Positions 1,419 through 6,458 of a DNA stretch of 64,000 nt are shown here, one piece after another. The notes under the pieces are model-generated. The model searched no databases and was not told the DNA's origin. It saw only the letters and a list, made by a program, of their open reading frames with translations. The stretch is taken from contig NZ_AP022565.1 of the NCBI RefSeq assembly GCF_010727325.1, positions 4,836,001 through 4,900,000 of the forward strand, in the 5' to 3' direction. Each line of letters starts with the position of its first letter. Within the stretch, counting starts at the first letter, position 1. This DNA comes from Mycolicibacterium alvei (GTDB lineage: Bacteria > Actinomycetota > Actinomycetes > Mycobacteriales > Mycobacteriaceae). The translations under genes were made by a program, and so were the position numbers.

Positions 1419-2351
1419 ATGATGAGCACGTCTCACAAGGCGCCTGAGGTGCCGTTTCCCTATACGGCGGTGGTTCCCGCGGCCGGTCTGGGTACGCGGT
1501 TCCTGCCTGCGACCAAGACGGTCCCCAAAGAACTGCTGCCGGTGGTCGACACCCCGGGTATCGAATTGGTCGCTGCCGAGGCCGCCGAGGCCGGTGCCGA
1601 ACGGCTGATCATCATCACCTCGGAAGGCAAAGACGGCGTCGTCGCGCATTTCGTCGAGGACCTGGTGCTCGAGGGCACGCTGGAGGCGCGCGGCAAGAAG
1701 ACGATGTTGGAGAAGGTCCGCCGCGCCCCCGCACTGATCAAGGTCGAGTCGGTGGTGCAGGCCGAGCCGCTCGGCCTCGGACATGCCGTCGGCTGCGTCG
1801 AGAGTGCGCTGGCTCCCGACGAGGATGCGGTTGCCGTCCTGCTGCCCGATGATCTGGTGCTGCCCACCGGTGTACTGGTGACCATGTCGAAGGTGCGGGC
1901 CAAGCGCGGCGGAACGGTGCTGTGCGCGATCGAGGTCCCCGAGGACGAGATCAGCGCCTACGGCGTCTTCGATGTCGAGACGGTGCCCGACGCAGCCAAT
2001 CCGAACGTGCTGCGGGTCAAGGGCATGGTGGAAAAGCCCAAGTCCGAAGATGCGCCGTCCCCGTACGCGGCGGCCGGCCGCTACTTGCTGGACCGGGCGA
2101 TCTTCGATGCACTACGTCGCGTTTCGCGCGGGGTGGGTGGGGAGATCCAGCTGACCGACGCCATCGCACTCCTGATCGAAGAGGGGCATCCGGTACATGT
2201 GGTTGTGCACCGCGGAGCCAGACACGACCTGGGAAATCCCGGCGGCTACCTGAAGGCTGCGGTTGACTTTGCGTTGGAACGTGACGACTACGGCCCAGAT
2301 TTGCGGCGGTGGTTGGTCGAACGGTTGGGTCTGACCGGACAGGACGGCTAG
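1419..2351 (+). CDS. galU: UTP-glucose-1-phosphate uridylyltransferase
   Basis: Makes UDP-glucose from UTP and glucose-1-phosphate for glycogen, trehalose and cell-envelope glycans. The 310-residue protein has the N-terminal nucleotidyltransferase loop AAGLGTRFLPATKTVPKELL (about residues 21-40). It also has the GalU motifs IITSEGKDGV, QAEPLGLGHAV and VLLPDDL, and a late VGGEIQLTDAI. Two adjacent ATG codons (1419 and 1422) are possible starts. The Glp gene follows after 53 bp in the same direction, as in other mycobacteria. Confidence 0.96.
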   Translation: MMSTSHKAPEVPFPYTAVVPAAGLGTRFLPATKTVPKELLPVVDTPGIELVAAEAAEAGAERLIIITSEGKDGVVAHFVEDLVLEGTLEARGKKTMLEKVRRAPALIKVESVVQAEPLGLGHAVGCVESALAPDEDAVAVLLPDDLVLPTGVLVTMSKVRAKRGGTVLCAIEVPEDEISAYGVFDVETVPDAANPNVLRVKGMVEKPKSEDAPSPYAAAGRYLLDRAIFDALRRVSRGVGGEIQLTDAIALLIEEGHPVHVVVHRGARHDLGNPGGYLKAAVDFALERDDYGPDLRRWLVERLGLTGQDG

Positions 2352-2404: not shown

Positions 2405-3643
2405 GTGCGTTCGGTCGAGGAACAGCAGGCTCGGGTAGCGGCTGCCGCGGTGGCGCCCCGGCCGGTGCGAGTGGCCATCGCCGAGTCGCAAGGCCTGATG
2501 TGTGCCGAAGAGGTCGTCACCGAACGGCCGATGCCGGGATTCGACCAGGCCGCGATCGACGGCTACGCGGTGCGCAGCGTCGACGTGTTGTCCGTGGGCG
2601 ACGGTGCCGGGGAGATCAGCCTGCCGGTGATGGGGTCGATCGAGGCGGGGGCACGGACCCCGAGTCGCTTGCAGCCCCGGCAGGCTGCGCGCGTGCAGAC
2701 CGGCGCGCCGATGCCGACGCTGGCCGACGCGGTACTTCCCCTGCGGTGGACCGACGGCGGCGAGAGCCGGGTCCGGATCCTGCGCAGCGTGCGCTCGGGC
2801 GCCTATGTCCGGCGCACCGGCGACGACGTGCAACCCGGTGACGTCGCGGTGCGGTCGGGCACCATCATCGGTCCGGCCCAGGTGGGCCTGCTTGCCGCAG
2901 TCGGACGCGACCGGGTGCTGGTGCATCCACGGCCCAGGCTGTCGGTGATGTGCGTGGGCGGCGAACTCGTCGACGTGTCCCGCAGCCCCGGAACCGGGCA
3001 GGTGTACGACGTGAACTCCTACGCACTGGCCGCGGCGGGCCGGGATGCGGGTGCCGAGGTCAACCGCGTCGGCATCATCAGCACCGACCCGGCGGAACTG
3101 CGGGAAACCGTTGAAGGCCAAGTCAATCGCAACGAGATCGTGGTCATCGCCGGTGCGGTGGGCGGGGCTGCCGCGGAATCGGTGCGCACCGTCCTCGCCG
3201 AACTCGGCGAGATGGAGGTGGCCCGGATCGCGATGCATCCGGGGTCGGTGCAGGGCTTCGGGCAGCTCGGCCGCGACCGCGTGCCGGTCTTCCTGCTGCC
3301 GGCGAACCCGGTCAGCGCGCTGGTGGTGTTCGAAGTGATGGTGCGCCCGCTGATCCGGTTGTCACTGGGCAAGCGCGCACCGATGCGGCGCGTGGTGCAG
3401 GCCCGCACGCTGGCGCCGATCAGTTCGGTGGCCGGGCGCACGGGATACCTGCGGGGGCAGTTGATGCGCGACCAGGACACCGGCGAATACCTGGTGCAGG
3501 CACTGGGCGGGGCGCCCGGCGCGTCGACGCATTTGCTGGCCACACTCGCCGAAGCGAACTGTCTGGTGGTGATTCCGAGCGAGGTCGACGAGGTCCGCAC
3601 CGGCGAAACCGTGGATGTGGCATTCCTGGCTCAGCGCGGCTGA
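2405..3643 (+). CDS. glp: Gephyrin-like MoeA-family protein (Glp), molybdotransferase fold
   Basis: A 412-residue MoeA/gephyrin-fold protein starting at GTG 2405. True MoeA inserts molybdate into adenylated molybdopterin. The N-terminal motif is kept (MPGFDQAAIDGYAVR, residues ~40-54). The central catalytic motif, usually GGVSxGxxD, reads GAVGGAAAES here. The usual PGKP reads PGSV, and LPGNP reads LPANP. These changes argue against a normal Mo-insertase. In Corynebacterium glutamicum the orthologous gene beside galU/rimJ encodes Glp, a gephyrin-like protein that binds FtsZ and the membrane receptor GlpR. The glpR gene lies just downstream here. It is often annotated moeA1; a cell-division role is inferred from synteny and motif loss. 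Confidence 0.85.
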   Translation: MRSVEEQQARVAAAAVAPRPVRVAIAESQGLMCAEEVVTERPMPGFDQAAIDGYAVRSVDVLSVGDGAGEISLPVMGSIEAGARTPSRLQPRQAARVQTGAPMPTLADAVLPLRWTDGGESRVRILRSVRSGAYVRRTGDDVQPGDVAVRSGTIIGPAQVGLLAAVGRDRVLVHPRPRLSVMCVGGELVDVSRSPGTGQVYDVNSYALAAAGRDAGAEVNRVGIISTDPAELRETVEGQVNRNEIVVIAGAVGGAAAESVRTVLAELGEMEVARIAMHPGSVQGFGQLGRDRVPVFLLPANPVSALVVFEVMVRPLIRLSLGKRAPMRRVVQARTLAPISSVAGRTGYLRGQLMRDQDTGEYLVQALGGAPGASTHLLATLAEANCLVVIPSEVDEVRTGETVDVAFLAQRG

Positions 3644-3683
3644 TAAGACTTCATTCGATGAATGACGGTGTGACGAATCGACA

Positions 3684-4343
3684 ATGTGGATGAGCTGGCT
3701 GCGCTCCAGTGCTTTTCACCCGGGCTGGCCCGTTCCGATCGGGCCGTTGCGGGTGCGGGCCGGCGTGGTGCGGCTACGCCCGGTGCGGCTGCGCGATGCC
3801 GCGGTGTGGAGCCGGATCCGGTTGGCCGACCAGGCTCACCTTGAGCCCTGGGAGCCGGTCAGCGGTGTGGATTGGAGTCTCCGCCATGGGGTTTCGTCAT
3901 GGCCAGCGATCTGCTCGGGTTTACGCGCCGAGGCCCGGCTCGGACGGATGCTGCCATATGTGATCGAGCTCGACGGGGAGTTCGCCGGCCAGCTCACGAT
4001 CGGCAACGTCACCCACGGCGCACTGCGGTCAGCCTGGATCGGTTACTGGGTGGCCAGTGACAAGACCGGCGGCGGGGTGGCGACGGGTGCGCTGGCGCTG
4101 GGGCTCGACCACGCCTTCACTGCGGTGCAGTTGCACCGAGTCGAGGCCACAGTGCGTCCGGAGAACGCCGCGAGCCGGGCCGTGCTGGCCCGGGTCGGGT
4201 TCCGCGAGGAGGGCCTACTGCGCCGCTACCTCGAGGTCGACGGTGCCTGGCGGGACCATCTCCTGGTGGCGGTCACGTTGGAGGAGCTGAAGCACTCGGC
4301 GTCCCAGGCCCTGGTTTCGGCCGGACGCGCCAGTTGGTGCTGA
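3684..4343 (+). CDS. rimJ: GNAT acetyltransferase, RimJ type
   Basis: A 219-residue GCN5-related N-acetyltransferase of the ribosomal-protein N-terminal acetylase group (RimI/RimJ). It should transfer acetyl from acetyl-CoA to a protein N-terminal amine. The acetyl-CoA loop region is SDKTGGGVATGALALGLDHA (about residues 128-147). The typical RimJ C-terminal pattern NAASRAVLARVGFREEGLLR then YLEVDGAWRDHLL follows. The gene lies between glp and glpR, which is the conserved order Rv0994-Rv0995-Rv0996. ATG 3684 or ATG 3690 could be the start. The substrate is unknown from sequence. Confidence 0.88.
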   Translation: MWMSWLRSSAFHPGWPVPIGPLRVRAGVVRLRPVRLRDAAVWSRIRLADQAHLEPWEPVSGVDWSLRHGVSSWPAICSGLRAEARLGRMLPYVIELDGEFAGQLTIGNVTHGALRSAWIGYWVASDKTGGGVATGALALGLDHAFTAVQLHRVEATVRPENAASRAVLARVGFREEGLLRRYLEVDGAWRDHLLVAVTLEELKHSASQALVSAGRASWC

Positions 4344-4600
4344 GCCGACCGGCGAGGATGCCCGGCCGCGACGCGCCGCATTGAAGCCGCATTGAAGCTG
4401 CGCCCACGGTCGCGATTTCGCCGGATTCACAGCCCTGGAAGCAATCTCGACGAATTCGGTTCCGTCAGCTGTTACTAATGTGGCAAATGTGACTGTTGGT
4501 GCTTGTATCGATCGAATTACAGGTGTGTAATTGTGTCGGCGCGCCACCCATGGATGCGCTGGTCGCAGACCTAGCCTGAACGGGGAAAGGAGCAGGCGTC

Positions 4601-5743
4601 ATGCCAAGCATCCCCCAGTCACTGCTGTGGATTTCCCTCGTCGTTCTCTGGCTTTTCGTGCTCGTTCCGATGTTGATCAGCAAGCGCGACTCGGTGCGTC
4701 GCACCAGCGATGTCGCCCTGGCGACTCGAGTGCTCAACAGCGGCCGCAACGCGCAACGGTTACGACGCGGCCCGGCCGCCGGGCATCACAGCGATCCGTA
4801 CTGGCAGCACACGGCTGACCACCTCGACGAGAAGCTCGATGAAGACTTCGAAGAGGATGAAGAACCGGTCGAGGTGCACGTACACGCGACCATGCAGCGC
4901 ACCGTGGTGGTGGCCGCGGCGGTGGTGAGCGTCGAGACCCCCGAGCCCGACTACCTCGATGTCGACGTCGTCGACGAGGATTCCGGTGCACTGCCCGTCG
5001 GTTCGATGGCCGAGACAGCCGAACCGGTTGCCGTGCCCGAGGAAGAGTCCGAACCCGAACTCGAGTTGGAGTTCGAGACCGAGCCTGAGGTCGAAGCCGA
5101 GCCGGAGTTCGATTCTGTCGAGTCGGAGGCCCAGACCGAGCGCATCGCACTGGATCTCGAGGATGTCGAGGAGGCCGAGGATTCCGACGCCCTTTCCGAC
5201 GACGAGTACGAGTACGTCGACGACTCGTCGGGCCTGGAACCCGAGGCCGAGGACGAACCGGTCGACGAGGAACAGGCCGAGACGCCCGTCGCGTCGCTGA
5301 GTGCCAGCCGGCAGCGCCGGTTCGAGTCCAAGACCTCCGCGGAGGTCACCGCCCGCAAGTTCCAGTTCCGCAAGCGCGTGCTGGCCGTGCTGGCCGCCAC
5401 GATCCTGTTCTCGGCGGGCGCCGCCTTGCTGGTGACGCCGTCGGCCTGGTGGATGTGTGGCGGCGCGGCCACACTGACCGTGCTCTATCTGGCCTACCTG
5501 CGCCGCCAGACCCGCATCGAGGAACAGCTGCGACGTCGTCGCGCGCAACGGATGGCGCGGTCCCGGCTCGGCGTGGAGAGCACCGATGACCACAAGCTCG
5601 ACGTGGTGCCGGCGCGGCTGCGTAGGCCCGGCGCGGTGGTGCTCGACATCGATGACGAGGACCCGATCTTCGAGCACCTGGCGTACACGTCGTATGCGTC
5701 GACGGCCCGCGAATACGATCTTCCGCGGGCTTCCGGGCAGTAG
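4601..5743 (+). CDS. glpR: Membrane protein GlpR, receptor of gephyrin-like Glp
   Basis: A 380-residue membrane protein with one N-terminal segment (residues ~6-26, LLWISLVVLWLFVLVPMLI). A long low-complexity acidic stretch of mostly E/D/V/P follows (~75-235). Two further hydrophobic segments lie at about 263-305 (VLAVLAATILFSAGAALLV and AATLTVLYLAYL), then a basic and finally acidic tail. A good ribosome site (AAAGGAG) precedes the ATG. Position after galU-glp-rimJ identifies it with Rv0996 and with corynebacterial GlpR, which anchors Glp at the division site. The acidic region is probably disordered; function is inferred from family work. Confidence 0.83.
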   Translation: MPSIPQSLLWISLVVLWLFVLVPMLISKRDSVRRTSDVALATRVLNSGRNAQRLRRGPAAGHHSDPYWQHTADHLDEKLDEDFEEDEEPVEVHVHATMQRTVVVAAAVVSVETPEPDYLDVDVVDEDSGALPVGSMAETAEPVAVPEEESEPELELEFETEPEVEAEPEFDSVESEAQTERIALDLEDVEEAEDSDALSDDEYEYVDDSSGLEPEAEDEPVDEEQAETPVASLSASRQRRFESKTSAEVTARKFQFRKRVLAVLAATILFSAGAALLVTPSAWWMCGGAATLTVLYLAYLRRQTRIEEQLRRRRAQRMARSRLGVESTDDHKLDVVPARLRRPGAVVLDIDDEDPIFEHLAYTSYASTAREYDLPRASGQ

Positions 5744-5920: not shown

Positions 5921-5987
5921 TCCCTCAGCGAGGATGAACCGTCGCATACTGGTCCTCGAACAGTGAATGCGAATCGAAGGGCACACC

Positions 5988-6458
5988 ATGACCGTCAGCA
6001 TCGTTGACGCGGGTCCGAATCAGGTCAGCCGCTCCGTGGAGGTCAATGCCCCTGCAGCCGAACTGTTCGCCATGATCGCCGACCCGCGTCGTCACCACGA
6101 GATCGACGGTTCGGGCACCGTCCGCGACAACGTGTCGTGCCCGGATGACATCGCCCCTGGTGCGAAGTTCACGACTGGGATGCGGATGTACGGGGTGCCC
6201 TACCGGATCACCAGCGTCGTCACCGCGGTGACACCCAACGAACTCTTTGAATGGCGACATCCGGCGGGGCACCGTTGGCGCTGGGAGTTCACCGCACTCA
6301 CCCCCACGCTCACGCGCGTGACAGAGACATTCGATTACCGCGACACCGGGCCGATCAAGGACACGCTGAAGTATTACGAGCGAATGGGCTTCGCCAAGGG
6401 CAACGCGAAGGGCATCGAGTCCACGTTGACCAAGTTGCACGACCGCTACGCGACATGA
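5988..6458 (+). CDS. SRPBCC (START/Bet v1-like) family protein
   Basis: A 156-residue polyketide-cyclase/START-like protein with the usual opening pattern ([20 protein letters not shown], residues ~12-31). The later region has [18 protein letters not shown] and a conserved VTETFDYR strand. Such proteins form a single hydrophobic ligand cavity, and the ligand cannot be told from sequence. ATG 5988 (MTVSIVDAG) is preferred to ATG 5967 because conservation begins after it and a GAAGG element sits 8 nt upstream. It converges with the P450 gene 19 bp downstream and may be part of the accessory oxidative block. Confidence 0.8.

Follow-up and report, generated by a model that had tools for sequence, protein, structure and literature searches.

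A gephyrin-like MoeA homolog beside glpR in Mycolicibacterium alvei, and signs that cofactor synthesis was lost several separate times at its locus

The 64,000-nucleotide stretch analysed here (the window; Mycolicibacterium alvei, NZ_AP022565.1, positions 4,836,001 to 4,900,000) raises the question of whether a MoeA-like gene lying between galU and rimJ, with glpR following, makes molybdenum cofactor or serves cell division. In Corynebacterium glutamicum the gephyrin-like MoeA homolog Glp, the membrane protein GlpR, FtsZ binding and a link to Wag31 are established (PMC10522489), and that Glp has lost its active site has also been published (PMC11733289). An original prediction, made from the window alone, invoked this corynebacterial precedent, which is indeed in print, and proposed that the gene encodes a division factor and not a cofactor enzyme. 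By its sequence, the window protein is a Glp ortholog and an ordinary member of the published family, and it fits both papers. What is new here is the comparison between families, the window copy itself, the Glp/GlpR pair and the loss of the active site having been published already. The comparison suggests that at the same locus in many other actinobacteria the gene continues to serve cofactor synthesis, and that this function disappeared independently on several occasions.

All three MoeA Pfam parts are matched by window Glp, and the Glp-model match spans residues 2-408 of 412, which rules out a truncated or misread gene. The protein scores 569 bits against the NCBIfam equivalog NF045515, 'molybdotransferase-like divisome protein Glp', and 346 bits, below the cut-off of 560, against MoeA_actino; as had been anticipated, the label moeA misleads, and the window annotation should read Glp, which the current NCBIfam model already provides. 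NF045515 is passed by motif-complete MoeA proteins as well, so that passing it is by itself weak evidence for Glp. C. glutamicum Glp (Cgl0883; PDB 8bve, 8bvf) is the top match in a search of solved structures, at 522.8 bits, as compared to about 175-176 bits for entries of E. coli MoeA, the molybdopterin molybdotransferase (PDB 1g8l/1fc5). With the E. coli enzyme window Glp has in common the fold, the three Pfam parts and several site residues, but D228, GGVS, PGKP and LPGNP are altered and the neighbours are of the division type. With C. glutamicum Glp it shares homology over the full length, the same kind of motif changes, the same FtsZ-tail contact positions and a glpR gene (Cgl0885) at the same locus. 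No defining difference from the corynebacterial protein was found, in which position 259 is non-acidic and FA stands at F46-D47, whereas window Glp has E at 259.

The altered motifs described in the original prediction are all present, as is the retained N-terminal MoeA motif, MPGFDQAAIDGYA (Table 1). Numbered as in E. coli MoeA, the departures are D228T, GGVS to GAVG and PGNP to PANP, leaving the catalytic motif set incomplete; D59, T100, D142, E188, P298, P301 and R350 are retained and position 259 is acidic, and the site is thus partly, not wholly, degenerate. Residues mutated in E. coli MoeA, according to the titles of PDB entries, include D59, T100, D142, E188, D228, K279 and R350. By alignment the motif changes are family-wide, because C. 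glutamicum Glp reads GAVGGAGSAG, PGSV and LPSNP. A chance or local oddity is ruled out, since that protein and all 48 extracted genes occupying this locus without moaC also depart from the motifs.

The FtsZ-contact positions V338, L360, M361, Y369 and F414 of C. glutamicum Glp are all identical in the aligned window protein; V338, L360, Y369 and F414 hold the FtsZ tail in the crystal, and the FtsZ-binding loop is defined in the same account (PMC10522489). The FtsZ of the M. alvei genome ends in DDDVDVPPFMRH, and APRPVR and HPRPR of window Glp resemble APEPVR and YPRPR of C. glutamicum, which are candidate proline-rich hinge regions. The glpR gene follows rimJ, as had been noted, and its product passes the SepX/GlpR family test at 316 bits with an N-terminal membrane segment at residues 8-26. 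It had been described as acidic with three membrane segments. The acidity is borne out (67 D/E and 18 K/R in residues 28-255), and a plain hydropathy cut-off picks two segments, 8-26 and 260-278, and not a third. Window GlpR gave no sequence match to solved structures at E 0.1. SepX of Streptomyces (PMC8748795) and GlpR form one NCBIfam family group, in which window GlpR is over the SepX_GlpR_1 cut-off and SepX belongs to another subfamily model; SepX is reported to be poorly conserved in sequence beyond its membrane segments (PMC8748795).

A division role for the window gene leaves cofactor synthesis to be accounted for, and a motif-complete moeA, which the original prediction had proposed seeking elsewhere in the genome, is present, so that the prediction survives the computational refutation set for it. 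A MoeA_N search of the 6.0 Mb genome (2 contigs) gave two genes only, glp included, which rules out a further MoeA. The other gene, at C1:2938551-2939738 (L008:2052-3239), carries GGVSAGAYEVVKD, QPGMPQG and LPGNP with zero departures from the motif set given below, scores 654 bits against MoeA_actino, and groups in a tree with the second copies of other genomes, apart from genes at the glpR locus (starred branch, 97). A moaC and a mog-like gene adjoin each other about 187 kb from glp.

Window Glp is therefore very probably a MoeA-fold division scaffold with altered molybdenum-insertion motifs, in a genome that leaves cofactor synthesis to a separate MoeA. If the window protein works as its C. 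glutamicum homolog does, domain IV would bind the C-terminal tail of FtsZ through a loop, Glp would dock on GlpR, and GlpR would connect the septum to the polar-growth scaffold Wag31, with the motif-complete MoeA presumably supplying the cofactor. From this homology we infer that the window protein lacks catalysis, binds FtsZ and GlpR and localises at the septum. Relatives with decayed motifs persist without MoaC, a Glp-model match being found in 39 of the 40 MoaC-less genomes examined. The earlier view of a division factor, not an enzyme, accordingly stands as far as Glp orthology, the GlpR neighbour and the identical FtsZ contacts are concerned, and calls for amendment in that motif loss is not general to Glp-scoring genes. 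Points against this reading are that the retained residues D59, T100, D142, E188, P298, P301 and R350 are compatible with some activity and that GlpR is a fast-changing protein. Nevertheless, it is very unlikely that window Glp is a working or residual molybdenum insertase that also serves division in the manner of animal gephyrin: most catalytic-site residues named in the E. coli mutant titles are retained (D59, T100, D142, E188, R350) and intact relatives occupying this locus seem catalytic, but the whole branch of window Glp shows changes in D228, GGVS, PGKP and LPGNP, and a motif-complete MoeA is encoded elsewhere. The gephyrin E domain (PDB 2fts and others) is, like Glp, a MoeA homolog serving as a scaffold under a membrane receptor (PMC10522489); unlike Glp, gephyrin keeps catalysis and a MogA domain, and its origin is separate (PMC11733289).

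Whether the gene has the same character elsewhere was examined in 393 genomes of the class, labelled G here, with f for families and L for loci. A Glp-model match is present in 392 and exceeds the cut-off in 280. Most actinobacterial genomes are reported to possess at least two MoeA copies, with glp arising from an early duplication (PMC10522489). By hand-reading of E-values in the search table, 75 genomes were judged to have a single match over the cut-off, and 64 of these were tested, 11 being left out. All 64 contain one MoeA_N gene over the cut-off, G042 and G290 having an extra match below it, and 'at least two MoeA copies' thus fails in this sample. MoaC, searched in 156 of the 393 genomes, is found in 63 of the 64, and in every one of the 63 moaC lies downstream on the same strand, starting 1.21-1.36 kb past the MoeA_N start (in G013 it is cut by the contig end). 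With moaC following, the sole Glp-scoring gene is probably the molybdenum insertase of those 63 genomes. G103, the one genome of the 64 to lack MoaC, holds a decayed gene. The sole genome of the 393 without a Glp-model match, G366 (f34), is also without MoaC and MoeA_N, and its GlpR-model match is weak at 30 bits.

Catalytic motifs were compared in 149 genes of the MoeA family, extracted from 120 genomes; genes truncated at the 3' end, shorter than 250 residues or containing masked letters were left out, and the genomes had been chosen as best-scoring, single-copy, small or below cut-off, or close relatives, so that the counts describe a pattern, not frequencies. The motif set consisted of D59, T100, D142, E188, D228, P298, P301, D/E259, GG[VIA]S and PGNP, with R350 outside it; P298 and P301 overlap PGNP, and one change may therefore count twice. 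Residents of the locus fall into two states. Intact-state residents (54 genes from 16 families), which have galU or rimJ as a neighbour and are followed by moaC, show no departure in 50 cases, one in 2 and two in 2; one of the two-departure genes is cut at its 5' end, leaving 53 complete. Decayed-state residents (48 genes from 14 families), followed directly by rimJ without an intervening moaC, all depart at least twice, 2 of them at two points and 46 at three or more. The 47 remaining genes, elsewhere or unplaced, include 37 without departure, and second copies extracted from 23 genomes with decayed residents are without departure in 21 cases and have two in 2. Decay goes with the absence of moaC from the locus, and motif loss is a trait of the family branch of window Glp, not of everything that scores as Glp. 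A second MoeA as the sole cause of decay is ruled out as too simple, because G016 and G035 (f19) have two MoeA_N genes and moaC in the genome; the three f19 residents extracted are all motif-complete and beside moaC.

GlpR accompanies residents of both states. Ten loci were tested for SepX/GlpR after rimJ, and matches over the cut-off were found at six intact-state loci (L059, L061, L062, L067, L071, L072) and at two decayed-state loci (L054, L056); the remaining two, L160 and L166, match at 103 and 90 bits, below the cut-off of 150. A single GlpR model searched in 73 genomes is over its cut-off in 13, and it matches within about 4 kb of the resident, by coordinates read by hand, in all 34 genomes of the two states (16/16 intact, 18/18 decayed); the 7 of the 73 genomes without a match all lie outside both groups. 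All five intact-state proteins tested against the annotation models (from L012, L016, L059, L072 and L175), four of them the sole MoeA of their genome, score 503-620 with the Glp model, over its cut-off, and 431-518 with MoeA_actino, below its cut-off. By these cut-offs all five would be named divisome protein Glp, and an NCBIfam cut-off that admits motif-complete MoeA in this way could hide cofactor genes in annotation.

Both states occur together in four families, f16, f24, f25 and f39. In a tree of 114 rows, from a short search and with long branches meeting, starred branches unite decayed genes with intact residents from the family to which they belong in f25 genus g31 (100), f24 (99) and f16 (96), and the state label requires 5 changes; a decayed f39 row on a very long branch was left out of the count. 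One loss or several may lie behind the large decayed block (f1, f3 and f4 with f2, f7, f13, f28, f30, f36 and f43). Genus g31 presents a graded series, from an intact gene (G022) through P301A (G224), T100A with D142E (G385) and T100A with LPPNG (G302) to four departures in G089, G256, G207 and G330, each of which has another moeA followed by moaC and mog. Identities were compared by domain for a sign of selection on domain IV: decayed g31 genes are 72-78% identical to that of G022 in domain IV and 68-76% in domain III, as compared to 84% and 85% already between two intact g31 genes. A sign test on the tree, setting missing moaC against lost motifs, found 5 independent pairs (median p 0.125), and fewer than six pairs cannot reach 0.05. 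Fisher values take no account of relatedness and do not serve as probabilities here. The most decayed full-length residents, at L170:1474-2757 (G041), L188, L164 and L183, depart at eight points, one of which is the aspartate of the N-terminal motif. Freshwater Nanopelagicaceae carry a reduced form (mini-Glp) of some 300 residues that lacks MoeA domain II; rimJ and a GlpR-like gene lie next to it, and neither MoaC nor any MoeA_N gene was detected in 28 of 44 such genomes. If the comparison holds, this form is a natural minimal version, and it shows which parts are dispensable for the non-enzymatic role.

The locus gene beside glpR appears to have a role that survived the loss of cofactor synthesis in at least two lineages. 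An about even chance is given to a dual-function MoeA in an ancestor of many actinomycetes, at once molybdenum insertase and GlpR-linked division factor and so a bacterial counterpart of gephyrin, in which catalysis would have been lost separately in several lineages as moaC went from the locus. Such lineages would then possess a further MoeA or lack any MoaC that could be detected, with mini-Glp as the extreme, and a role older than the losses, with intact residents doing both jobs, is the simplest account. Two observations weigh against it. Its odds are lowered by f19, in which the presence of a second copy does not by itself bring decay. The C. glutamicum-type contact set L360, M361, Y369 and F414 is complete in 19 of the 149 genes, all of family f1, in which genus g1 is probably Mycobacterium in the broad sense, so that any partner binding in other lineages, intact or decayed, may use other residues.

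The same restriction of the contact set to f1 favours an intact resident that is an enzyme only, with the division role arising separately in the lineages that lost catalysis, and no published account was met in which an intact resident binds GlpR or FtsZ. This account is nonetheless somewhat doubtful, given that GlpR lies beside residents of both states and that separate decayed lineages have all retained the gene together with rimJ and glpR, a pattern most simply explained by a non-enzymatic role that came first. That decayed residents are instead an old separate paralog, replaced in intact-state lineages by a moeA-moaC-mog operon, accords with the early duplication favoured by the published phylogeny (PMC10522489) and with a large decayed block that the tree does not resolve, but is unlikely, since the decayed genes of g31, f24 and f16 group with intact residents of their own families and the second copies form another group. 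If the comparison holds, species whose sole MoeA sits at the locus make it possible to test a repurposed against a moonlighting Glp. A literature search of text, without figures or supplements, met no paper on a sole-copy intact MoeA at the glp locus or on the form without domain II; phyletic plots in the figures and supplements of PMC10522489 may show part of this pattern.

Table 1. Position and supporting evidence for features of the window locus, and loci of the reduced form
Feature	Position	Strand	Evidence
galU (UTP-glucose-1-phosphate uridylyltransferase-like), conserved upstream neighbour	1419..2351	+	PF00483 93.7 bits; TIGR01099 237.5 bits, below cut-off 326.8
glp, gephyrin-like MoeA homolog, 412 aa, GTG start	2405..3643	+	NF045515 569 bits, cut-off 475; PDB 8bve 522.8 bits
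Retained N-terminal motif, MPGFDQAAIDGYA, Glp residues 43-55	2531..2569	+	sequence, alignment
Degenerate central motif, GAVGGAAAES, residues 250-259, where GGVSxGxxD is expected	3152..3181	+	alignment to E. coli MoeA
PGSV, residues 279-282, where PGKP is expected	3239..3250	+	alignment
LPANP, residues 298-302, where LPGNP is expected	3296..3310	+	alignment
Predicted FtsZ-binding loop, LMRDQDTGEYL, residues 353-363 (C. glutamicum L360 to L370)	3461..3493	+	alignment; L360, M361, Y369 identical
rimJ-like GNAT acetyltransferase	3684..4343	+	PF13302 62 bits; NF008072 78.5 bits, below cut-off 190
glpR, SepX/GlpR family membrane protein, 380 aa	4601..5743	+	NF045516 316 bits, cut-off 160; membrane segments, acidic region
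Mini-Glp of streamlined freshwater actinobacteria	L160:1369-2298, L161:1486-2400, L166:1489-2391, L159:1363-2283; 80 loci L193-L272		

Some minor observations accompany these features. A MoaB/Mog-like gene with a PF00994 match (L009:3524-4102) lies about 8 kb upstream of glp, beyond the window, and is separate from the moaC-mog pair 187 kb away. Downstream of glpR, window positions 5967-6458 encode what is probably an ordinary SRPBCC (Polyketide_cyc2) protein, which scores 20.6 bits with an Rv0910-type toxin model against a cut-off of 100. Finally, mini-Glp of the Planktophila type occurs in metagenome-assembled genome records titled Bifidobacterium breve or Streptomyces griseus (L196, L224, L233, L243, L256, L261, L266), titles that look wrong.

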